DNA of 39,287 nucleotides from a virus: positions 1 to 39,287 of IMG/VR virus record IMGVR_UViG_3300042691_047136; one strand, given 5' to 3'. Positions within the stretch are counted from its first letter, which is position 1. Each line of letters opens with the position of its first letter. Positions 6,225 to 34,609 of the stretch are shown here, in pieces. The notes below the pieces were generated by a model. It had not been told where the DNA came from and did not search any database. It worked only from the letters and a program-made list of their open reading frames with translations. Made by a program: the position numbers and the translations under genes.

Positions 6225-6228
6225 CTAG

Positions 6229-6244
6229 GGAAACACTGAACAAG
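6229..6244 (+). repeat. IS5-group left terminal inverted repeat
   Basis: This is the 16-base left end of the element, directly inside the CTAG target duplication. It pairs with 7392-7407 at 13 of 16 positions. Confidence 0.85.
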
Positions 6245-6293
6245 TTCCCGATTTTGCTGTCGTAGTGCGAGGCGCAAACGGGAGGGTCGAAAG

Positions 6294-7274
6294 ATGAAGG
6301 GGATGACGCAGATGACGCTGGCGGCATCGAAGCGATTCGAAGTGTACGGCCGGTCGACGCGCAAGGCGGAATTTCTGGCGCGCATGGAAGCGCTGGTGCC
6401 ATGGACCGAGTTCTGTGCGCTCATCGAGCCGCACTACGCCAAGCCCGGCAACGGCCGGCCTCCTGTTGGTCTGGAGCGCATGCTGCGCATGTACTTCGTG
6501 GCCAACTGGTTCAACCTGGCCGATGAAGCCTGCGAAGACGCTCTCTACGACATCGCCGCGTTTCGTGACTTCTGCCGCATCGACTTGGGGCGCGAGCGGG
6601 TACCGGACGCCACCACCCTGCTCAAATTTCGCCACCTGCTCGAAGACAAGAAGATCGGTGCCGCGCTGTTCGCCAAGGTCGGTCAGTTGCTGCAGGCCAA
6701 CGGGATGAAACTCTCCGGCGGCACCATCGTCGATGCCACCCTGATCGCCGCGCCGCCGTCGACCAAGAACAAGGACAAGAGCCGCGATCCGGAAATGCAC
6801 CAGAGCAAGAAGGGCAACGAATGGCACTTCGGCATGAAACTGCACATCGGTGCGGACAGCGCGTCCGGGCTGGTGCACAGCGCCAGCGTCACCGCCGGCA
6901 ATGTGCATGACAGCCAGGAACTCCCCAATCTGCTGCATGGAAACGAAACCCGGTTTTACGGTGACAGCGCCTACCGTGGCAAGGCAATCCGTGAGCGGCT
7001 CAAGGAACTGGCGCCCAAGGCGAAGGACTTCACCAACAAGCGGGCCTACAAGAACCGGCCGCTGACCGATGCAGACAAAGAGACCAATCGGCGCAAGTCG
7101 GCGGTGCGCTCCAAGGTTGAGCATCCGTTCCTGACCATCAAGCGCATCTGGGGCTTCGCCAAGGTCCGGTATCGTGGCTTGAAAAAGAACGCCAACCGGG
7201 CGTTCGCCATGCTGGCGACGCTCAATTTGGTCAAGTGGGGACGACCGCTCACAGGAGAGGTGCGTCCTGCATGA
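6294..7274 (+). CDS. IS5-family transposase
   Basis: This is a DDE transposase of 326 aa, the usual size for the IS5 group. The catalytic triad can be read as D147 in GGTIVDATLI, D224 in FYGDSAYRG and E276 in SKVEHPF, the last within the conserved Y/R-rich C-terminal signature ending near KNANRAFAMLATLNL. The ATG at 6294 has a GGGAGG ribosome-binding site 8 bases upstream. The frame is uninterrupted, so the enzyme may be active. High-GC codon use differs from the adjacent low-GC LysR/cupin genes. Confidence 0.95.
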   Translation: MKGMTQMTLAASKRFEVYGRSTRKAEFLARMEALVPWTEFCALIEPHYAKPGNGRPPVGLERMLRMYFVANWFNLADEACEDALYDIAAFRDFCRIDLGRERVPDATTLLKFRHLLEDKKIGAALFAKVGQLLQANGMKLSGGTIVDATLIAAPPSTKNKDKSRDPEMHQSKKGNEWHFGMKLHIGADSASGLVHSASVTAGNVHDSQELPNLLHGNETRFYGDSAYRGKAIRERLKELAPKAKDFTNKRAYKNRPLTDADKETNRRKSAVRSKVEHPFLTIKRIWGFAKVRYRGLKKNANRAFAMLATLNLVKWGRPLTGEVRPA

Positions 7275-7391
7275 GAAAAATGCATAGAGAAACACCGCGA
7301 TTTCCCTCTTAGCAGAGCCAAAAACCAATGAAATCACGATTCTTTCCGACATTTCAGCTCAATCCCGCTCGGCAGCCGGTATTTTCGACCG

Positions 7392-23032: not shown

Positions 23033-23494
23033 TGTCGGTCCTCTCACATGTGACTCCCACTTGCCCCCACGGGATTAGAGTTCTTACAGCGGCACAAACT
23101 CTGTGCGCCAGCTAACATAGCGACGCACAGCCGGCCTCTCGTTCCTGGTCAAGTTGCCGGCTCGGTGAATGGGCCGATGAGACGAAAGGTAAGGCCGCGA
23201 ACTTCCGTTACGTAGAATTGTGGCCGGCGGGTTCGGGTCGGGGATGGCCCGACGGTGAAGTTTAAGTCGTTCGGCTGTTGACCGCTCGATACCGGTCATT
23301 CGGGGCCGCGAAAGCGCTTTTTAGCGCCAACGCGCCTCTGGGCGGCCTTGCCGCGTCACCGCTGACGCGCCACCCCCTCAAGTAATCCGCGCCCGGCCGG
23401 GATGGCCGGCGCCCGATTCCCTTTCTGTCGCTGGCCGCCGCGCGCGGCGCAACTTCCCTCGTTCATTTTCAACCGCACCCATGGAGCATTCCAC
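23033..23494. other. Intergenic region between receiver cassette and giant gene
   Basis: About 460 bases with no convincing gene on either strand. It contains short palindromes such as GCGCT-TTTT-AGCGC near 23315 and a G/C-rich end. The giant gene's frame stays open upstream as far as an ATG at 23402, but that start has no ribosome-binding site and the encoded extension is Arg/Pro/Phe-rich and atypical. Promoters for the giant gene may lie here, but none matches the consensus well. Confidence 0.5.
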
Positions 23495-26400
23495 ATGGCA
23501 TTGAAGCCATTTACCGGCACGCTCGACCCGCCGCACGGTCTGGCGCCCTTCAACGGCCCGCTCGACGGCGAGGAGCCACAGGCAACGGCCGGCGGGCTGA
23601 TCCGCTCGCTGGCGGCCTCGGCCCTTGACGCTGGCGTCGGCTACCCGCTGCAGGCGGGTGGGGAATTGCTGGCGGCCGGGCTCAACAAGGCGACGGGCAC
23701 TGAGAAGTTCCGCGCCGCGAACCCGGTCGGACCGATCTCCAACCTGATTCGCGAAGGCATGTCGGGCGGCGACCAGTTGGCGGCGCAGGATGGGTTCAAG
23801 GGTGACGTGCTCGCGCCTGCCACCTGGGAAATGCCCAAGACAATCTCGGGGCTGGCGCACCAGTTCGCGCAGGGCGCGGGATCGCTCGCCTCGATGGTGG
23901 TGCCTGGCGCGGCGGCGGTTCGCGCCGGCCGGCTGGCGGCGGGGGCGACCACGGTAGCGGAAAAAGCGGTGGCGGAGGCCGCGATGCGCAGGGCGGCGGG
24001 CATCGGCGCGGTGGCGGGTGGCGCGCCCACGGCGGGGGCGGCGGCGGACGACGTGCGGGCGGGCATCGGCCGCATGAGCGACGCGCAGCTCTACCAGCAG
24101 TCGCCGCGCTTCAGGGCGCTGGTCGATCAGGGCATTGATGCCGGTACCGCGCGCCAGACGGTGGAGAACATGGCGGCGCAGGCGGCCGGGGCGATTTCTG
24201 GCGTTGCGGGGGCGGCATCCGGTGCGCTCAATGCGCGGCTGCTGGAGGACGTGGTCGCCAAGCGCGGCATCCCGGCGCTGATCGGCGGCCTGTCGGAGCG
24301 CGGCGTGGTGCGGGCCGGTGTCGGCGCGGGGCTGGGCGCCATCGGCGAGGGTGTGCAGGAGACGGCGGAGAAGGTCGGGCAGAACGCGGGCGAGAACGTC
24401 GGCTTGGGTGCGCCCGCCGCGCAGGACCTGACGCGCGACACGCTGGGCGACTTCGCGGGCGGGTTCATGGTCGGCGGGCCGATTGGCGCGCTGGGCGGAC
24501 ATGCGTCGCGCGCGCCGGCAGCCGGTGCCGAGCAGCCCGATGGACAAGACGCTGCCGCTTCGAGCCCGCCTTCGGTGCAGAAGCCGGAGCAGCTCGACGC
24601 GAGCATCCTGGCGGCGGCGAATCACCCCGACGCGGGGCCGTTGACGCGCGCCGCGGGTGCCGGCGTGATCAGCGGCGCGGTGCGGGCGGAATGGGCGCGG
24701 CAGAAGGGCGAGCGCGAGGCCGAGCGCGTCGGCATGGTCGACCGCCTGGCCGAACTCGATGAAAAGGCCGCCGGCACGGACGAGCAGCCGGGCCTACTGA
24801 CCCTGGCCGAGCAGAACGAGCGCGAAGAGTTGCGCGCCCAACTGGGCTTCACCGGCCAATTTCCACCCGACGTGGCGTTCTCGCCTGTCGACCTGGCGCC
24901 GAAGGCGGCGGCGGTGCAGCAACTCGACGCCCAAGGCGAGGCGGAGAAGGAAGCGGCGACGGCCGAGGCCGAGCGCGCGTTCGCGGAGCGCGAAGCCAAG
25001 CGGGAAGCCGCGAAGCAGCGCGAACTGGCGCAGGTGGCCACCGCCGGCAAGGAGACGCTGGCCGACGAGCAGATCGCGGTGGCGAACGCCGCGGGGTCGG
25101 GCATCCAGGAGAATGCGCCGCCCAACGCGATGCAATTGGCGTTTCAGCGAGCGCAGGAACGGAAGGCGAAGAAGGCGGCGGCTGCTGCGCCCGGACCTGC
25201 CAATACTGCCGAAACCCCTGCAACGGCTGTAACGGCAGTGCCCGTACCGGTGAAATCCACTGCGACACCTGCGACAGTTGCGACAGGTGGTGGTGAAACG
25301 AGCCCAAGTGTCGCAACTGTCGCACCTGTCACTGCCCCAACCCCCGGTTGGACGCCGCCGGCCGAAAAGGCCGAAGCCGTCGTCCTGCAGAATCGCAACC
25401 GCAGCGATGCGGCCTATGTGCAGCAGGTGGCGCAGATCGCGGGCAATCCGGATCCTCAGCGGCTGTCGTTCTCGCGCGACTTCGCCAGCGGTGCACCGGT
25501 GGTGTTTGTGGAACACGGCACCCAGATCGCGCCGGACCGGCTGGGCCGCGAGGAAAGCGTGACGGCAGCCACCGGGCGCAAGATTCCGGTGCGTTATGCC
25601 GCGGTCGAGGCCGACGAACTGCTGCCGAGCAACCAGGCGGATGGCACCGCGAACCCGGAATACGCGGGTGGCGCGCCCGGGCGCATCCGCGTGGTGGCGG
25701 GCAACGGGCGCGCGGCGGGCATCCAGGGCGCCTATGCCAAGGGCACGGCGGAGGGCTACAAGAACGGCATCGGCGCGGATTCCGCGCTGCATGGCGTGTC
25801 GCCGGAAGTCTGGGCGGCCATGCGCTCGCCTGTGCTGGTGCGCGTGATGCCCGAGGGCGACGTGACGCCCAACATCGGCGACGAATCCAACCAGACGGGC
25901 GTGGCGGAGAAGTCGGCGCTGGAGAAGGCCAAGGACGACGACCGTCGCCTCGATCTTGCCGCGCTGACCTTCAACGAGGAGGGCGACGTCGCGCCGGAGA
26001 CGCTGCGCCAGTTCGTCGATTCGATGCCGGTGGCCGAGCAGACCGGCTTGCGCAACCCGGACGGCACGCCGACGCGCCAGGCCAGCGACCGGCTGATGGC
26101 GGCGATCTTCTGGAAGGCCTACGCCAGCGACGAACTGGTGCGCCTGTTCGCCCAGGCAAGCGACCCGGAGTCGCGCAACGTGATGTCCGGTCTCGCGGCT
26201 GCCGCGCCGCAGATGATGCGCTTGGACGGTGCGGGTGATCTGGATATTCGCCCGCTGGTGGCGGAAGCGGCCGGCGCGGTTATCTCGGCCAAGCGGCGCG
26301 GGATCTCGCTCACCGAATTCGTCAAGCACAAGGACTTCGGCATCGGGCCGGAAACGGCTGCTGTGCTGGACATGCTGGCGCGCAACGTGAGGAGCGCGAA

Positions 26401-29400
26401 GAAGATCGGCGAGGCGCTGCGCTCGGTGGCGACGCTCGCGTATGATGAAGCGAACAAGGCGGAGGACGGATTTTTCGGGCCGGAACCACGCCTGACCCGC
26501 CCTCAGGTACTGGAGAAACTCAATGACACCGCAGGGTCGGAAAATCTGGGGCAGCCGCCAAGGGCAGAATCTCTTGAAGGCAATGCTGGACGGCGGGCCG
26601 CTCAAGCCGGAACACGAGGAGACGGTGGCGCAGTTGAAGAAAAGCGGGCCGCCTACCAAGGCACCGATCGCCAAACAACCGGACGCCAAGCCGGAGACGT
26701 AGCCGGTGAGCCCGAAACCCCGTATACCAAGGACCTTTTCGGCGAGCCGTTCGAGCTTGCGAAGGTACCCAACGCGCCGCGAAGTGGTGGAAATCGGCCA
26801 CGCCAGCAAGCCGCCCCGCCTGGGAACGTACAGCCCGGCCCGGCCGTATCTGACACTGCGCCGCCGCCAGGCGAATACCACGCGAACACCACGGTCGTCT
26901 CGACCGTAAACCGGCAACTCGGCGCCAGCCGCATCCGCTCGGCCGGCGATCTCGCGGCGGCCACCCGCTATCTCTACAAGTCCGCCGTCGAGCGCTTCGA
27001 CGGCATCGTCACCGACAAGAACGGCAAGCCGCTGGCGGTGGTCGGCTCGTTCAAGGGCGCGCTGACGCAGACCTCCGTCTACCCCGCGACCGTGGTGGCC
27101 GAGGCGATCCGCGTGCCGGGGGCGGCTGCGATCTGGTTCTCGCACAATCATCCGTCGGGGACGGCCGAGCTTTCGATGGCGGACCGCATGCTGCACGGGG
27201 CGATGATCGATGCGTTCCGCGGCAGCGGCATCGAGCCGATGGACCTGATCGCGGTGGCGGGTAGCCGATTCGCGGGGCAGGACGGCGGGCGCAACTCGGT
27301 GGGGCCGGCGGATATTCCGGCCGCCATCGGCAACGTCACGGTGCCGGTTATCGAGCGCGAGGTGGATGCTTCGTTCAACCCGGGCCTGGCCGTGTCACTC
27401 TCGTCGCCGGCGCTGGCCAAGGCTATGGCGGCGAATGTGTACGCGCGCAACCAGGGGCCGGGGCTGATGCTCACCGACGCGCGCAACCGTTTCCTCGCCT
27501 GGGTGCCGCTGGATGCGGCGCTGGCCGCGAAGCTGCGCGGCAGCGGGGGCCTGGGGGCGGTGTACCGGGCGATCAGCCAGTCGAACGCGGCGGGCGCGAT
27601 CATCGTTCACGGCGGTGAATATTCCGCGCGCACCCATGGCGTAGCGGTGTTTGCCAACATCGGCGCGGCGTTGAAGCAGGTGGATGTGTCGCCGCTGGAC
27701 GCGATCAACCTCAAGGGCGCGAGTGGCGTCGAGTCGGCGGCGGAACGGGGCTTGAGCTTGGCGGACGGGCCGGTGTATTCGCGCGCGGTGGAGGACGATG
27801 CGTTCGGGGTGCGCGAATTCGGCTTCGATTCACTCGACGACGTGTCGCCGGCCTACCGCACGCCGGAGCGCTGGCGCGCGGTGCCAGGGGCGATGCGCGA
27901 GCGCCACGCGGCGCGTGCCCTGCGGGCGGAAGTGGCGCGGCTGGAAGAAGGACTCAACCGCGACGCCGGCTGGACGCAGGGCTCCGAGCCGGTGGTGCTG
28001 TCGCTGGACGACAACGGCAATATCAATGTCGCGCGCCTGAACCTGCTCGGCGAAGGGCTGGTCACCGCGCTGCGCGACGTGGCGGCGGCGGCCGACCGGC
28101 TGGAACTGGGCGTGGTGTTGCGTGCCTCCGCCTACGGCGACGGCGTGAGCGACCAGTTGCCGCAGCAATTCGGTTTCGACCGTTTCGGTGTCTCGGTGCG
28201 TGCGGCGGCCAGCGACACCTATACCCGCCCAAGCGCGCGCGGGTTTCACAAGGGGCAGGGGCCGCGCAACCGCGTCACCTGGGTGCGCCATGTGCGTGGG
28301 GCGCCGCTGTTCTCGCGCGGGCCGTCGGCGGCGTTTGTCGAGACGACGCACGCCGGCAAGCCGGAGTTCCGCAACGACTTTGTGCACCTGGCCGACCCGG
28401 ACGAGATCAAGCCCGGGCGATTCATGTGGCGCCTGTTGTCGCAGGAATTGACCGACGAGGCCGGGGACCCGCTGTATGTCGGATTCCTGATCGCGGACGT
28501 GAAGGACGGCATCTTTAGCGCGCTGCGCAATATCGAGATCAACCCCGCGCTGCGCGGGCGCGGCCTGGGCGAGACCGTGGTTGGCTCGATGTTGCGCCAC
28601 AACGGCGGCGCGCCGCTCAAGATTCTCGATATCCAGCATGCTCGCCATCGGGGCACCGACCAGGACCCGTTGCCGTTCTGGAAAAAGCTCGGTACGATCC
28701 TCACCAACTACTCGTCCGATCCGCATGTGGAGATGGACGGGATTCTCACCTTCAAGGCCTACCATGACGCCCGAGCAAATCGCGGACCGCAAGCAGATCG
28801 AGGAAGTCTCGGCCCGGATGCGCAAGCCGTCGCCGGCCGAAGCGGCGCGGCGCAAGAAGGCCGCGCAGCGCAGCCGGCAAGAGCGGGACTTGGTCAAGAA
28901 GAAGTAGCGCGCATCGCCGGCGCGGTTTCGTTCGGCAAGCGCATCCACGTCGCGGCAACCGCGGCCGACCTGCCCGCTTCGGCGGGGCGCCTCAAGTCGG
29001 ACAGCAAGACGCGCATTCGCGGCGTCTACATCCCCTCGACCGACGACATCTGGCTGGTAGCGGCGCACCTGCGCACGCTTGAGGAAGTGGCGTTCGTCAC
29101 GCTGCACGAGGGGGCGCACCGCGGACTGCGCAAGTTCTTCGGGCCGGAGATCAAGCCGATGCTGCATCGGCTCTGGCTGGGCAATGCGAACGTGCGCCAG
29201 CAGACGGCCGAATACCAGGCGAAATACAAGATCGGACGCGAGGAAGCGATCGAGGAAGTGCTGGCCGACATGGCGCAGCGCGGCGTCGCGCGCGACCTGA
29301 CCGGATGGGAGAAGCTGGTCGCCTTCATCAAGGAATGGGTGGCGCGCCTGGCGGACAAGGCCGGCATCCGCCTGCGCTTCACCGACGACATGGTGCAGAC

Positions 29401-32400
29401 GCTGGTGGGCGCGGCGGCGCGGCGCGGGCTTGAGGCCGATGCCTCGTTGTTCGACGATGCGATTGCCCGGCAGTATTCGCAGGCGGCGCCGGTTTGGTAT
29501 TCGGAACTGCAGGCCAAGGTGGTGGCCAATGGGCCAGGCGTGGCGATGCCGGGACAGTGGCGTGCCTTCATCAAGGGACTAACCACGCGCGGCGTGAAGG
29601 CGGACGAAATCGCCTGGAGCGGGGTGGACGAGTGGCTGGCCGCGCAAACGGGGCGCATCACCCAGGCGCAGGTGCTCGACTTCCTGCGGTCCGCCAGCGT
29701 GGACCTGGTCGAGACCCACCTGGCCGAACCCAAATGGGAAGACGCCCAGGAGAAAGGGCAGACGCAGAAGGCGATGCTGGCGGCCAAGGATGCCTACGAT
29801 TGGGCGCGCCTGGCGATGCGCGAAACGATGGAGGCGGGCGGCGGCGAGGTGGACGGCACGCTGTGGGCCAACACGGCGTTGTGGACTGCGAGCGTGGCCA
29901 AGGGCCGCATCGATGGCACGAGTGACATGATGTTCGAACGGGACAGCCACCAGAAGCTGATGGATGCCATGCCGACGCCGGAGGCGCGCGACGCGGCGGA
30001 ACGGACCATCGAGAAAGAGATGGATTGGCTGCGCAAGGCGGCCGCGTACAACGCCGTGTCGGACCGCATCCGCCGCGACAACACGCGCTTCGGCACCTGG
30101 CAACTGGCGGGCGGGCGCGACTACCGGGAACTGGCGATCAACCTGACCGAGACGCCCGATGCGCGGCAGATGCGGGCGGCGCTACTGGCGCGCAATGTGG
30201 CGCGTCGGCCGAAGCGCAAGGCGGTGTTCGACAAGTATCAGCCGGCGATCGACGCGATGCGCGTGTCTGTTGACCGGGCAACGGCAGCGGGGGATCGGGA
30301 ATCGGCTGACGCGCACATGGCGCGGATGCACAAGCTGGAGGACCAACGCGACCGCGAGGCGGCGGACGTGGCGGGGGAGATCGAGGACTGGCGCGACCTC
30401 AAGGTGCCGCAGTACGAGGTGCCGCAGCCGCACCGCATGGGCGGCACGGCGGACGTGAACCGGGTGCTGCATGTGCGCTTCAACGAGCGCCGCGACCCGC
30501 AGGGGCGGCGCGTGCTGTTCGTTGAGGAGATCCAGAGCGATTGGGCGCAGGAGGGGCGGGACCGCGGATTCAAGGCCACACGGGCGGAGCGCCGTGAGGC
30601 CGAGGCGTTGCTGAAAAAGGCGGATGCTGCGGGCGGGATGCGCAACTTGTCTGAGGCGGAACAGGCGCGCGGGCGCGAACTGGGCGGGAAGATCGCCAGT
30701 GCCGGGGTTGCGCCGGCGCCGCTGGTGGGCAAGACCGAGGCTTGGGTGGGGCTGGCGTTGAAACGGCTGATTCGGTGGGCGGTTGAGGAAGGCTTCGACC
30801 GGATTGCGTGGACGACCGGGGCGCAGCAGGCGGCGCGGTATGACTTGAGCCAGCAGGTGGACCGCCTCGACTACTCGATGAGCGACGAGGGCGAATACAG
30901 CTTTTCGGCGATCAAGGGCGGTAAGGAAATCATTCAGAAGGTTGGCCTCTCGCGCGAAGACCTGGAAGGCATGGTCGGGAAGGAGATCACCGAAAAAATC
31001 ATCATGGGCGAAGGCAAGGCCGGGGTGACCGATGACGGAGAGACCTATCGCTCCCTGTCCGGCCTCGACCTCACGTTGGGCGGCGACGGCATGAGAGCCT
31101 TCTACGACCGCATCGTGCCCAACGTGGCGGGCGCGGTGCTGAAACGGCTGGGTGGCGAGCGCGTGACCATGGCGCCGGTGAGCATGCGCGACGACGAAGG
31201 CTGGGGCGATTTGGCGACCGGCGAGACCGACTATGCGGAGCAGGCGGGCTTCGACATCACGCCCGCAATGCGCGACCGTGCGCTGGCTGGACTGCCGCTG
31301 TTTAGCCGGCCGGAGGATCTGGCGCAGGGTGACCTGCTTTCAACCTACGACGAGAACGACCTCAAGGCCAAGACCGAGCGTGAAGCGGCGGCGGCCGATG
31401 CGCTCAAGCCACCGCCGGGCAAAAAGGTGACGGCCGATCAGACGGACATGTTCAACGGGCAGGATTCGTTGTTCAGCCGCGCGGATGATGGCGAGCCGAT
31501 GCTTAGCCATCCTGCCGCAGCCAAGGCGTTTCGGGCGATCCGCGAGTCGATCGGCCGTGACGACCTGGCCGGCATCCTGATGAACTGGAACGACTCGGAG
31601 CTTTCCGCGGACGGCGAGCGGATCATCGGCTACGTCGGCCGGGACCGGCACTTCTCGCGCGGGAAGGAAGGCGGAAGCCGGGCCATCCCCAAGAGGGAGT
31701 TCATCGCATGGCTGATGAGCGACTCGCCGTTCGACCCAGCGGTGTATGGCCCCGCGATCCGCAAGGATGCGGAATGGGTGACGCAGATCGAGGCCGCACG
31801 CGCAGCCTCCGGGCTGCCGGGCGGAGATGACGCGCCGCGGGCCAGCCGTGGCGATCCGCTGCCGGGTGATGCCCGAAGCGATGAATCAGTTGCCGACCCG
31901 ACCACGCCGGCCGACGCGCGCACCCGCGTCGATGCCCTCAAGGATTCCGTGCGCGCCATCGCGCTGGGCGGGTTCACTCGCCACCAACTGGCCGACATGT
32001 ATGGTGGCAGCATGCCCGAAGTGGCCGAATACGACCGCATGGCCGGTGACATGGATTCGCTCCGGGCCAATCTGGCGCAGGAGGCCGACCACCTGCTGAC
32101 GGCATGGCGCCGGCTCGGCCGCGACACGGGCGACCGGCTGGCCGACATCATGCATGAGGCGACGCTGGGCCAGTTCGACCCCGACACGGGCAAGAAGGGT
32201 GATGAATTTGCCATGCGTGCCGGGCCGATGAAGACCCTGGTCGACCGCTACAACGCGCTGCCGGAGACGGCCAAGGCGGTGTACCGCCGCTCGCGCGACC
32301 TCTACACCAAGCGCCTGCGCCAGTTGTTCGACGCGCTGGCGGCGCGCATTCAGCGCAGCGGCGCGGATCCGGAAGCGACGCGGCGCACGGTGGACCAGTT

Positions 32401-34609
32401 GCGCATGCAGTACGACCGTCATCTCGCGCGCGGGCCGTATTTCCCGCTGGCACGGTTCGGCGACTACCTGCTGATCGCGGATCGTCTGACGCCGATGGGG
32501 ACCGATGACGACCACATGGTGATGGCGTTCGAGTCGGCGCGGGAGCGCGACCAGGAGGCGGTGCGGATGAAGGGGCGCGGGTATCGCGTGAAATCCACCG
32601 TGGCCAAGGAGTACAGCCGCGCCAAGGACGGCGCTGCCGGGCCTCTGGCGGCGGCGATGAGTGAGGCGATTGCCGAACTCGACATGGACACGCCCGACGT
32701 GCACTCGCCTGAGGGCAAGAACCTGGGCGACATCAAGACGCAGTTGCTGGACGAACTCAACCAGGCACTGATCCGCGGCCTGCCGGAACTGAGCTACCGC
32801 AAGCATTTCATCCACCGCAAGGGCACGCCCGGGTTCTCCAACGACGCGATGCGCGCGTTTGCCGATAGCCACCTGCATGCGGCCAATCACATCGCGCGGC
32901 TGGAATACGGCGACCAGTTGGTGCGCACCCTGGAGCGCCTGCAGGGACGCATCACCGACACGCTGGAAGGCGACGTGACGGTGTTGCAGCAGGTGTCCAA
33001 TGAACTGGTGAAGCGGCACGAGGTGTCCTTGAACCATGTGACGCACCCGGTCGCGGCGATGCTGGGGCAGGTGGGGTTCGTGATGAGCCTGGGCGCCTCG
33101 GTGGCATCCGGCGTGGTCAATCTGATGCAGACGCCGCTGGTGACGTACCCGTGGCTGGCGTCGAAATACGGCTGGGGCAAGGCCAGCGCGGCGCTGCTCC
33201 AGGCGGCGCGCGACTACACCCGCTCGCCGTGGGCGTGGGAGTCGGGGCCGAACGCCGCGCGCAACGCCAAGCTTTCCGGCGACCAACTGGCCATGCTGCG
33301 CGAGTTGGAGAACCGCGGCAAGATCAACACCACGCTCGCACACGACCTGGCTTCGGCATCGAGCACCGACAATCTGAACCAGTTCTCGAAATACGGCAGC
33401 GCCTGGCAGCGGACGCTGCGCATGGTCGGCTGGACCTTCCATGTGCCCGAGGTGGCGAACCGGCAGATCACGGCGCTGGCCACCTACGACCTGGCGCGGC
33501 AGGCCGGGCAGACCCACGAGGCGGCGATCGAGGCGACGGCGGAGGCGGTCGACAAGACCCACTTCGACTACACCAGCGGCAACCGGGCCCGCTACTTCGA
33601 AGGCAATTTCCGCCGCGTGCTGCTGATGTTCAAGCAGTACGGGCAGAACATCGCCTACCTGTACGGTCGGGCCGGGTACCAAGCGTTTCGCGGCGCGAGC
33701 CCCGAGGAAAAAGCCGAATCGCGGCGCCTTCTGGCGGGCATGCTGACGGTGCAGTTCGCGGCCGCCGGGGCGTTGGGTCTGCCGTTCGTGGGCGCGGTGG
33801 CGTCGATCCTGGGCGCGATGATGAACGGCTTCGGCGGCGACGACGAGAAGCGGGATTGGGAGGTCGAGTTCCGCAACTGGCTGGCCGGCACGGTCGGCAA
33901 GGATGCCGGCGAGGCGCTGTCGCACGGCCTGCCGCGTCTGGTGCTGGGCTGGGACCTGGCCAGCCGGATCGGGCAGAACGACCTGTTCATCCGCGCGCCG
34001 AACCGCGAGCAGGAGGGGCGCGACGCCTATTTCGCCTGGATGCAGGCGCTGGCCGGGCCGGTGGCGGGGTATGCACTGAATGGGTATCTGGGTCTATCCG
34101 ACATTGCGCGGGGTGCGGGGTCGCTGAACCGCGGCCTGATGATGCGCGGCACCGAGGAACTGATGCCGGCGGCGATCCGCAACCCGCTGCGCGCGCTGCG
34201 CTACCAGGTGGAGGAGGGCGTGCGCACGCGCGGCGGGGAGAAGCAGATCGAGGTGACGCCGTTCGAGAAGCTGGGCCAGGCTCTGGGATTCACGCCGCGG
34301 CGGGTGGCGGAGATGTACGAGGGCGTGTCGGCGGTGAAGAACCGGCAGCATGGGATCGAGCTGCGGCGCGGAGAGTTGCTGGACCAGTTCGCGGCGGCGG
34401 TGCGGGAGCGGGATTTGCGCGGGCTTGGGGAGGCGATGCGGGAGATTCAGGGATTTAATGCGAGGAATCCGCAGGCGGCGATTACGCAGGAGACGATTCA
34501 GCGGTCGCTCGTGAACCGGCGCAGGCGCCAGATCGAAATGCACGAGGGGATCACACTGCCGCGCCGGCGGGAGCATTTGCGGCAGGAAGGGACATTTGCG
34601 AATTTGTGA
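23495..34609 (+). CDS. Giant large polyvalent protein (about 3,704 aa) with ddrB/ParB-like, RadC/JAB, GNAT-like, metallopeptidase and PLxRFG-like regions
   Basis: ATG 23495 has a TGGAG site 8 bases upstream. Residues 1-380 are Gly/Ala-rich with membrane-active helices. About 410-600 is coiled coil plus linker. About 630-1005 is a ddrB/ParB-like domain (RIRVVAGNGRAAGIQGAYAK). About 1130-1290 is a RadC/JAB domain with H1217, H1219 and D1230 in HNHPSG-x7-D. About 1605-1755 is GNAT-like (INPALRGRGLGE; FWKKLG). About 1840-2000 is a zincin with H1871-E-G-A-H1875 and downstream EEAIEEVLAD. About 2340 has the LPP-type FVEEIQSDWAQEGR segment. The C-terminal third has hydrophobic stretches near 3184-3222 and 3412-3446 and a PLxRFG-like region (ARYFEGNFRRVLLMFKQYGQ). 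Such proteins are thought to be packaged and injected to defend phage DNA. Two internal stretches read better in another frame. Confidence 0.88.
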   Translation: MALKPFTGTLDPPHGLAPFNGPLDGEEPQATAGGLIRSLAASALDAGVGYPLQAGGELLAAGLNKATGTEKFRAANPVGPISNLIREGMSGGDQLAAQDGFKGDVLAPATWEMPKTISGLAHQFAQGAGSLASMVVPGAAAVRAGRLAAGATTVAEKAVAEAAMRRAAGIGAVAGGAPTAGAAADDVRAGIGRMSDAQLYQQSPRFRALVDQGIDAGTARQTVENMAAQAAGAISGVAGAASGALNARLLEDVVAKRGIPALIGGLSERGVVRAGVGAGLGAIGEGVQETAEKVGQNAGENVGLGAPAAQDLTRDTLGDFAGGFMVGGPIGALGGHASRAPAAGAEQPDGQDAAASSPPSVQKPEQLDASILAAANHPDAGPLTRAAGAGVISGAVRAEWARQKGEREAERVGMVDRLAELDEKAAGTDEQPGLLTLAEQNEREELRAQLGFTGQFPPDVAFSPVDLAPKAAAVQQLDAQGEAEKEAATAEAERAFAEREAKREAAKQRELAQVATAGKETLADEQIAVANAAGSGIQENAPPNAMQLAFQRAQERKAKKAAAAAPGPANTAETPATAVTAVPVPVKSTATPATVATGGGETSPSVATVAPVTAPTPGWTPPAEKAEAVVLQNRNRSDAAYVQQVAQIAGNPDPQRLSFSRDFASGAPVVFVEHGTQIAPDRLGREESVTAATGRKIPVRYAAVEADELLPSNQADGTANPEYAGGAPGRIRVVAGNGRAAGIQGAYAKGTAEGYKNGIGADSALHGVSPEVWAAMRSPVLVRVMPEGDVTPNIGDESNQTGVAEKSALEKAKDDDRRLDLAALTFNEEGDVAPETLRQFVDSMPVAEQTGLRNPDGTPTRQASDRLMAAIFWKAYASDELVRLFAQASDPESRNVMSGLAAAAPQMMRLDGAGDLDIRPLVAEAAGAVISAKRRGISLTEFVKHKDFGIGPETAAVLDMLARNVRSAKKIGEALRSVATLAYDEANKAEDGFFGPEPRLTRPQVLEKLNDTAGSENLGQPPRAESLEGNAGRRAAQAGTRGDGGAVEEKRAAYQGTDRQTTGRQAGDVAGEPETPYTKDLFGEPFELAKVPNAPRSGGNRPRQQAAPPGNVQPGPAVSDTAPPPGEYHANTTVVSTVNRQLGASRIRSAGDLAAATRYLYKSAVERFDGIVTDKNGKPLAVVGSFKGALTQTSVYPATVVAEAIRVPGAAAIWFSHNHPSGTAELSMADRMLHGAMIDAFRGSGIEPMDLIAVAGSRFAGQDGGRNSVGPADIPAAIGNVTVPVIEREVDASFNPGLAVSLSSPALAKAMAANVYARNQGPGLMLTDARNRFLAWVPLDAALAAKLRGSGGLGAVYRAISQSNAAGAIIVHGGEYSARTHGVAVFANIGAALKQVDVSPLDAINLKGASGVESAAERGLSLADGPVYSRAVEDDAFGVREFGFDSLDDVSPAYRTPERWRAVPGAMRERHAARALRAEVARLEEGLNRDAGWTQGSEPVVLSLDDNGNINVARLNLLGEGLVTALRDVAAAADRLELGVVLRASAYGDGVSDQLPQQFGFDRFGVSVRAAASDTYTRPSARGFHKGQGPRNRVTWVRHVRGAPLFSRGPSAAFVETTHAGKPEFRNDFVHLADPDEIKPGRFMWRLLSQELTDEAGDPLYVGFLIADVKDGIFSALRNIEINPALRGRGLGETVVGSMLRHNGGAPLKILDIQHARHRGTDQDPLPFWKKLGTILTNYSSDPHVEMDGILTFKAYHDARANRGPQADRGSLGPDAQAVAGRSGAAQEGRAAQPARAGLGQEEVARIAGAVSFGKRIHVAATAADLPASAGRLKSDSKTRIRGVYIPSTDDIWLVAAHLRTLEEVAFVTLHEGAHRGLRKFFGPEIKPMLHRLWLGNANVRQQTAEYQAKYKIGREEAIEEVLADMAQRGVARDLTGWEKLVAFIKEWVARLADKAGIRLRFTDDMVQTLVGAAARRGLEADASLFDDAIARQYSQAAPVWYSELQAKVVANGPGVAMPGQWRAFIKGLTTRGVKADEIAWSGVDEWLAAQTGRITQAQVLDFLRSASVDLVETHLAEPKWEDAQEKGQTQKAMLAAKDAYDWARLAMRETMEAGGGEVDGTLWANTALWTASVAKGRIDGTSDMMFERDSHQKLMDAMPTPEARDAAERTIEKEMDWLRKAAAYNAVSDRIRRDNTRFGTWQLAGGRDYRELAINLTETPDARQMRAALLARNVARRPKRKAVFDKYQPAIDAMRVSVDRATAAGDRESADAHMARMHKLEDQRDREAADVAGEIEDWRDLKVPQYEVPQPHRMGGTADVNRVLHVRFNERRDPQGRRVLFVEEIQSDWAQEGRDRGFKATRAERREAEALLKKADAAGGMRNLSEAEQARGRELGGKIASAGVAPAPLVGKTEAWVGLALKRLIRWAVEEGFDRIAWTTGAQQAARYDLSQQVDRLDYSMSDEGEYSFSAIKGGKEIIQKVGLSREDLEGMVGKEITEKIIMGEGKAGVTDDGETYRSLSGLDLTLGGDGMRAFYDRIVPNVAGAVLKRLGGERVTMAPVSMRDDEGWGDLATGETDYAEQAGFDITPAMRDRALAGLPLFSRPEDLAQGDLLSTYDENDLKAKTEREAAAADALKPPPGKKVTADQTDMFNGQDSLFSRADDGEPMLSHPAAAKAFRAIRESIGRDDLAGILMNWNDSELSADGERIIGYVGRDRHFSRGKEGGSRAIPKREFIAWLMSDSPFDPAVYGPAIRKDAEWVTQIEAARAASGLPGGDDAPRASRGDPLPGDARSDESVADPTTPADARTRVDALKDSVRAIALGGFTRHQLADMYGGSMPEVAEYDRMAGDMDSLRANLAQEADHLLTAWRRLGRDTGDRLADIMHEATLGQFDPDTGKKGDEFAMRAGPMKTLVDRYNALPETAKAVYRRSRDLYTKRLRQLFDALAARIQRSGADPEATRRTVDQLRMQYDRHLARGPYFPLARFGDYLLIADRLTPMGTDDDHMVMAFESARERDQEAVRMKGRGYRVKSTVAKEYSRAKDGAAGPLAAAMSEAIAELDMDTPDVHSPEGKNLGDIKTQLLDELNQALIRGLPELSYRKHFIHRKGTPGFSNDAMRAFADSHLHAANHIARLEYGDQLVRTLERLQGRITDTLEGDVTVLQQVSNELVKRHEVSLNHVTHPVAAMLGQVGFVMSLGASVASGVVNLMQTPLVTYPWLASKYGWGKASAALLQAARDYTRSPWAWESGPNAARNAKLSGDQLAMLRELENRGKINTTLAHDLASASSTDNLNQFSKYGSAWQRTLRMVGWTFHVPEVANRQITALATYDLARQAGQTHEAAIEATAEAVDKTHFDYTSGNRARYFEGNFRRVLLMFKQYGQNIAYLYGRAGYQAFRGASPEEKAESRRLLAGMLTVQFAAAGALGLPFVGAVASILGAMMNGFGGDDEKRDWEVEFRNWLAGTVGKDAGEALSHGLPRLVLGWDLASRIGQNDLFIRAPNREQEGRDAYFAWMQALAGPVAGYALNGYLGLSDIARGAGSLNRGLMMRGTEELMPAAIRNPLRALRYQVEEGVRTRGGEKQIEVTPFEKLGQALGFTPRRVAEMYEGVSAVKNRQHGIELRRGELLDQFAAAVRERDLRGLGEAMREIQGFNARNPQAAITQETIQRSLVNRRRRQIEMHEGITLPRRREHLRQEGTFANL
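25261..25331 (+). repeat. 9-base tandem repeats followed by their inverted copies
   Basis: TGCGACANN occurs three times in tandem at 25261-25287. The complementary TGTCGCANN follows in tandem at 25309-25326, with a further partial copy. The longest perfect inverted pair is 16 bases (25270-25285 and 25309-25324) around a 23-base loop. It lies in the low-complexity Thr/Ala/Val linker before the ddrB/ParB-like region, and the 9-base period keeps the frame. Confidence 0.75.
26523..26702 (+). CDS. Small ORF nested out of frame in the giant gene (59 aa)
   Basis: The +1 frame encodes MTPQGRKIWGSRQGQNLLKA followed by a Lys/Pro-rich C-terminus, with a GGAG ribosome-binding site 7 bases before the ATG. 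A hand count gives about 47 of 59 codons ending in G or C in this frame, against roughly 28 of 60 in the giant-gene frame over the same bases. The giant-gene frame here reads as Gly/Arg/Gln-rich filler between the ddrB/ParB-like and RadC modules. The small frame is therefore the one under coding selection now or until recently. It could be an overlapping gene, or a former separate gene bridged by a fused giant frame. Confidence 0.65.
   Translation: MTPQGRKIWGSRQGQNLLKAMLDGGPLKPEHEETVAQLKKSGPPTKAPIAKQPDAKPET
28764..28907 (+). CDS. Second small ORF nested out of frame in the giant gene (47 aa)
   Basis: The encoded peptide starts MTPEQIADRKQIEEVSARMR and ends in a Lys/Arg-rich helix with KKK at the C-terminus. 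An AAGG site lies 6 bases before the ATG. By hand count 43 of 47 codons end in G or C in this frame, against 22 of 47 in the giant-gene frame, which reads as Arg/Gly/Ala/Gln filler. It sits exactly between the GNAT-like and metallopeptidase modules and is in the same +1 frame as the nested ORF at 26523. Function is unknown; the basic helix might bind nucleic acid. Confidence 0.62.
   Translation: MTPEQIADRKQIEEVSARMRKPSPAEAARRKKAAQRSRQERDLVKKK

Follow-up and report, generated by a model that had tools for sequence, protein, structure and literature searches.

A probable gene nested in the +1 frame of a giant polyvalent phage gene, with further nested families in related phages

We consider it very likely that a small open reading frame (ORF), here called small1, encodes a functional protein from the +1 frame within a giant polyvalent gene, that a second ORF in the same gene (small2) is probably alike, and that the arrangement is general. 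Judging from the genomes compared, nesting in the +1 frame is a general feature of giant genes of this class and recurs in dozens of related phages, where it comprises at least five nested families (A–E), mutually unmatched and all in the +1 frame. The starting point is a window, meaning the whole stretch of DNA that was analysed. It corresponds to one IMG/VR virus record, 39,287 bases long, is prophage-like and contains portal, head, transposase and integrase genes. The features of the giant gene and its nested ORFs are as follows.

23402 to 34609, + strand: giant polyvalent (PLxRFG/DarB-like) gene; 3735 codons if counted from its first ATG, with a possible later start at 23495
25382 to 25846, + strand: ddrB-like ParB domain of the giant protein (PF18763, E 1.6e-17)
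26512 to 26515, + strand: Shine-Dalgarno-like GGAG of small1, 7-nt spacer; a site of at least 4 nt is present in 6/6 family members
26523 to 26702, + strand: small1, candidate nested gene, 59 codons, +1 frame, family A (MTPQGRKIWxSxxG...); evidence from GC3, relatives, selection and codon scan
26723 to 27809, + strand: RadC module (Pfam), whose counterpart in plasmid KHPS1 is a frame with its own start (MGGAYEKDLFGYP...)
28754 to 28757, + strand: Shine-Dalgarno-like AAGG of small2, 6-nt spacer; evidence from sequence
28764 to 28907, + strand: small2, 47-codon nested ORF in the +1 frame with a strong codon signature; searches gave no relatives
28955 to 29521, + strand: peptidase-type region with an HExxH-like motif, where the giant frame resumes after small2; match to the giant gene of Pseudomonas phage Rollin
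31937 to 32413, + strand: LPD39 domain (PF18858, E 3e-25), followed by the C-terminal PLxRFG-type module

The giant protein contains ddrB-ParB, RadC and LPD39 domains according to a Pfam search, and a PHROG search matched it to DarB-like giants. It joins several effector domains and an LPD domain in one polypeptide and in a prophage context, as large polyvalent proteins do. The third-position GC content (GC3) of the giant frame is mostly 0.80–0.97. Besides the stretches over small1 and small2, a further low-GC3 dip lies at 25140-25380, in a low-complexity linker rich in Ala, Pro and Thr that holds no coding-like nested ORF. Elsewhere in the window, a transposase gene at 6225-7352 (PHROG 3598, E 5e-111) lies between portal-type and head-type genes, and an insertion element therefore seems to sit in the head module.

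Both small ORFs are complete, beginning with ATG at 26523 and 28764 and each ending with TAG, and the ribosome-binding sites that the initial annotation had assigned to them were confirmed. Its account of base composition, with high GC3 in the +1 frame where the giant frame drops to about 47%, proved right on recomputation: GC3 is 0.80 in the +1 frame versus 0.475 in the giant frame over small1, and 0.917 versus 0.468 over small2. A codon-usage likelihood score was computed for every +1 and +2 nested ORF of the giant gene; the two small ORFs score +42 and +38, while the third-best nested ORF reaches +3. In 1000 protein-preserving recodings of the giant gene, the highest nested-ORF score was +7.9. 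This recoding null was used because a control with ordinary genes gave no clean false-positive rate, its scan positives mostly overlapping the end of a neighbouring gene through stop-to-stop bounds. The giant gene is homologous up to about 26524 to the ddrB-type gene that plasmid pBVIE05 carries separately, and from about 26723 onward to the RadC frame of plasmid KHPS1, which places small1 between the ddrB and RadC modules. The earlier proposal that both ORFs lie at module boundaries thus holds for small1 and, downstream of small2, for the peptidase-type homology that starts at about 28955; the GNAT module proposed upstream of small2 was unconfirmed by Pfam. In the codon-usage scan, small2 gave the strongest score in the window, and it has the same frame and signature as small1, but no relatives of it were found in viral contigs or in the collected giant genes; with a signature and no relatives, small2 is a probable rather than a proven nested gene.

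The relatives of small1 form a family (A) of six distinct members including the window, the other five lying in giant genes of Burkholderia-type prophages and one metagenome virus. Two were recruited by a scan of viral contigs, three by a scan of genome contigs (one being the same prophage as a viral contig) and one by a genome search. The six peptides share M-T-P-x-G-R-K-x-W-x-S and other positions, including 14 invariant residues, and conservation of the protein begins at Met1. Every member occupies the +1 frame of a surrounding giant ORF (1047–3780 codons) at the end of the ddrB module; the modules further downstream differ, with RadC in the window and a helicase module in locus L007. The start codon is ATG in all six, with a Shine-Dalgarno site of 4–7 nt, and six independent assemblies, isolate genomes among them, place small1 identically. 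In locus L023 (reverse strand), the giant gene is shortened and most of its ParB domain is missing, and the small1 relative with its Shine-Dalgarno site is intact. A structure model of small1 consists of three short helices (mean pLDDT 76); fold searches with the models of families A and B returned no match with E below 0.8, and comparison of small1 with Pfam, PHROGs, and phage and plasmid records gave no match. Several candidate relatives were rejected. A stretch of L002 resembling the start of small1 sits in a tail-fibre-type gene, a match in L018 was spurious, lying in the wrong frame of a different gene whose product resembles a nitrogenase subunit, the likeness of Comamonas 13271 to family A is too weak to claim, and P1 iddB, although annotated inside ddrB, is on the opposite strand and unrelated. 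The codon scan gave no nested signal in P1 darB and ddrB.

The pattern of substitutions in family A points to purifying selection on the small1 frame. Substitutions at small-frame positions 1/2/3 amount to 0.38/0.31/0.50, a small-frame pattern (bootstrap P about 1e-4) that selection on the giant frame cannot explain, because position 2 of the small frame is position 3 of the giant frame. In an upstream control region, giant-frame positions 1/2/3 have 0.33/0.26/0.60, as for a normal gene. Synonymous codon changes occur at 12 of the 14 invariant residues. The giant frame contains 0 stops across family A versus about 13 expected and 0 versus about 117 over families A–E, and the product probability that it is open in all six family A members, given the small protein and local codon usage, is about 3e-7, although these counts and this probability weigh less because the members share ancestry and are less independent than a product of probabilities assumes. 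An excess of giant-frame identity over recoding was likewise not used to prove selection on the giant frame, since relatedness does not enter into the recoding. At the level of sequence comparison, then, the small frame over small1 is conserved as protein and the giant frame is loosely conserved but kept open. This is the opposite of the outcome that the initial annotation had named as evidence against its proposal, namely a protein conserved in the giant frame and not in the small frame.

Nested ORFs of this kind are spread well beyond the window. A scan of 20 giant genes found coding-like nested ORFs almost only in the +1 frame, and four further families (B–E) were identified in PLxRFG/DarB-like phage genes, all in the +1 frame and left out of annotation. 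The preference for +1 can be traced to the fact that, with a coding nested frame, only the frame one base before it readily stays open in these genomes; the third frame across the nested genes has 2–3 expected stops per gene. Family B (about 120–136 codons) was found in nine giant genes, and in L007 and L029 it adjoins the ResIII/SNF2 helicase module of the giant gene on its upstream side. Searches with tblastn located it in Serratia phage Parlo, Ruegeria 45A6, Klebsiella ZX1, Pseudomonas Skulduggery and two Vibrio phages; these six cases are without an annotated gene of their own and in the +1 frame in 6/6, although two of them have only 44–45% GC. Family C (MNLNNWxxQARxHWKE..., about 100–130 codons) is the most widespread, having been found in nine giant genes, in 21 phage records and then in 67 IMG/VR loci. 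The loci of the two families are as follows.

Family B: L007:8721-9095; L029:8995-9384; L030:9013-9375; L031:9025-9414; L032:9004-9393
Family B, continued: L033 and L034:9013-9408; L004:14684-15094
Family C: L038:4355-4672; L036:5120-5428; L044:10001-10330; 67 IMG/VR loci L048-L114

Among the 67 IMG/VR loci of family C, 64 are nested, two are cut by contig ends and one (L056), without a long surrounding ORF, is a rearranged remnant; a Shine-Dalgarno site is present in 99% of the 67, and about 263 stops would be expected in their giant frames. Across families A–C, a start codon (ATG or GTG) with a Shine-Dalgarno site of at least 4 nt is present in 24/24 members, compared with 15.7% of 1839 control +1-frame ATGs. 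Family D is without clear Shine-Dalgarno sites, and its starts are uncertain for that reason. The likeness of L006 6672 to family D was too weak to claim, and L006 10446, with a marginal score, may belong to family C. In Pseudomonas phage Itty13 (L043:5905-17163), the gene annotations are on one strand and a 4112-codon giant ORF carrying family C is on the other; the record seems to be misannotated there. The recurrence of these families suggests that phages routinely encode a giant protein and small partner proteins in one and the same stretch of DNA.

The best reading of these observations is dual coding, that is, internal initiation combined with readthrough of the giant frame, with translation inferred from sequence. 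Ribosomes would start at small1's own ATG behind its own Shine-Dalgarno site and yield a 59-residue protein, and ribosomes in the giant frame would translate these bases into a linker, poorly conserved, that joins the ddrB-ParB module to the RadC module. As in a nested overlapping gene, small1 is a complete ORF inside an ORF of another frame, has its own conserved start and ribosome-binding site, and leaves the surrounding frame open. The proposal of overprinted genes in the initial annotation is strongly supported for small1 by the small-frame conservation of family A and is plausible for small2. A different origin of the signature would be a fusion of formerly separate genes, in which small1 and small2 are leftover intergenic genes, unexpressed and read out of frame. 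The position of both ORFs at module boundaries, the separate RadC frame of plasmid KHPS1 (L003), which begins near where homology starts behind small1, and a codon usage over the overlap that fits the small frame and not the giant frame are all in keeping with such a relic, but purifying selection on small1 in its own frame, the retention of start and ribosome-binding site in six divergent viruses and the failure of searches in phages, plasmids, viral contigs and genomes to turn up a free-standing, intact homologue make it unlikely. The three-gene fusion across small genes suggested by the initial annotation was not established: RadC does start a separate frame elsewhere, but none of the 67 family C loci, nine family B or six family A members is an intact free-standing copy, nor was one found for any nested family in the collections searched. 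Birth inside the giant gene, in its linkers, is equally possible as an origin, since no such copy was found.

Programmed frameshifting, by which ribosomes would slip to +1 at the end of the ddrB module and produce a ddrB protein with a small1 tail, could account for a nested frame that is +1 throughout. Phage PBC5 (L045:3752-19515) is relevant here, as its giant gene is split in two by one frame change: the first half shares its frame with the family C ORF and terminates at the same stop codon, and the second half is open upstream across family C. That split may be a single indel, real or from sequencing. Moreover, a product of programmed frameshifting would have no independent start, whereas conservation in small1 begins at an ATG behind a conserved Shine-Dalgarno site, a start codon at Shine-Dalgarno spacing recurs in every member of families A–C, and no shared slippery site was noticed in an informal look; we regard frameshifting as very unlikely. 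Much the same low probability attaches to separate translation of the downstream modules, with the long ORF only apparently one gene and small1 an ordinary intergenic gene. The codon signature does switch sharply at the boundaries, but the giant frame is open across every nested gene, it offers no ATG, GTG or TTG at 26600-26960 or 28800-29050, and the DarB-like giant protein of phage JC1 has been detected in virions by mass spectrometry (PMC9144972). Least credible of all is chance or sequence error, meaning open shadow frames in GC-rich DNA or paired assembly indels that shift two stretches. GC-rich genes often leave another frame open and the window is one IMG/VR record, yet the recodings peak far below the scores of both small ORFs, and the identical placement of small1 in independent assemblies extends to isolate genomes.

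If dual coding is correct, small1 would most likely act together with the adjacent ddrB-ParB module, perhaps as a partner of this effector or by chaperoning or inhibiting it. This is a guess from position, suggested by its constant place behind ddrB-ParB; the coupling is weakened by L023, which keeps the small1 relative after losing most of the ParB domain. A broader and rather speculative idea, which we hold only tentatively, is that giant virion-borne effector genes carry recurring, position-specific +1 nested genes whose products serve the effector module beside them as dedicated partners or antidotes. The producing cell would make these products from the DNA that encodes the effector, and recombination could then not separate effector and partner. 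Should the nested genes be translated, giant polyvalent proteins would come with nested partner proteins, their linkers would be constrained by a second frame, and module shuffling would have to respect these joints. Culturable phages would then allow direct tests of how giant phage genes grow and of a whole set of uncharacterised small proteins. Standard gene callers drop ORFs lying inside longer ORFs, and conserved phage genes of 50–130 codons have for this reason stayed unannotated in sequenced phages such as Parlo, PEp14, Skulduggery and SopranoGao.

Nested genes as such are already known. The giant gene of the window, with its ddrB-ParB, RadC, LPD39 and peptidase-type modules, is a typical member of the large polyvalent proteins and DarB- and DdrB-like antirestriction giants (Iyer et al., 2017; PMC5512222); the word 'overlap' is absent from the main text of that survey, and no description of nested genes in DarB-like or PLxRFG giants was found in the open-licence literature searched. 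Embedded Rz1 in Rz spanin genes, stated for Bcep22-like phages (PMC9144972), is likewise a conserved same-strand nested phage gene, but its surrounding gene is short, its function is lysis and there is no sequence relation. The traH gene nested in traI of IncP plasmids (RP4) encodes a small acidic protein that works with the product of the surrounding gene (PMC7314908). It resembles the present case in that a small protein is encoded inside a larger gene in a different frame, and differs in being one nested gene in a relaxase gene, whereas here recurrent families lie at module boundaries of giant virion proteins. In the traI-type gene of L003, our codon scan also detected a nested +1 ORF at the place expected for the known traH.
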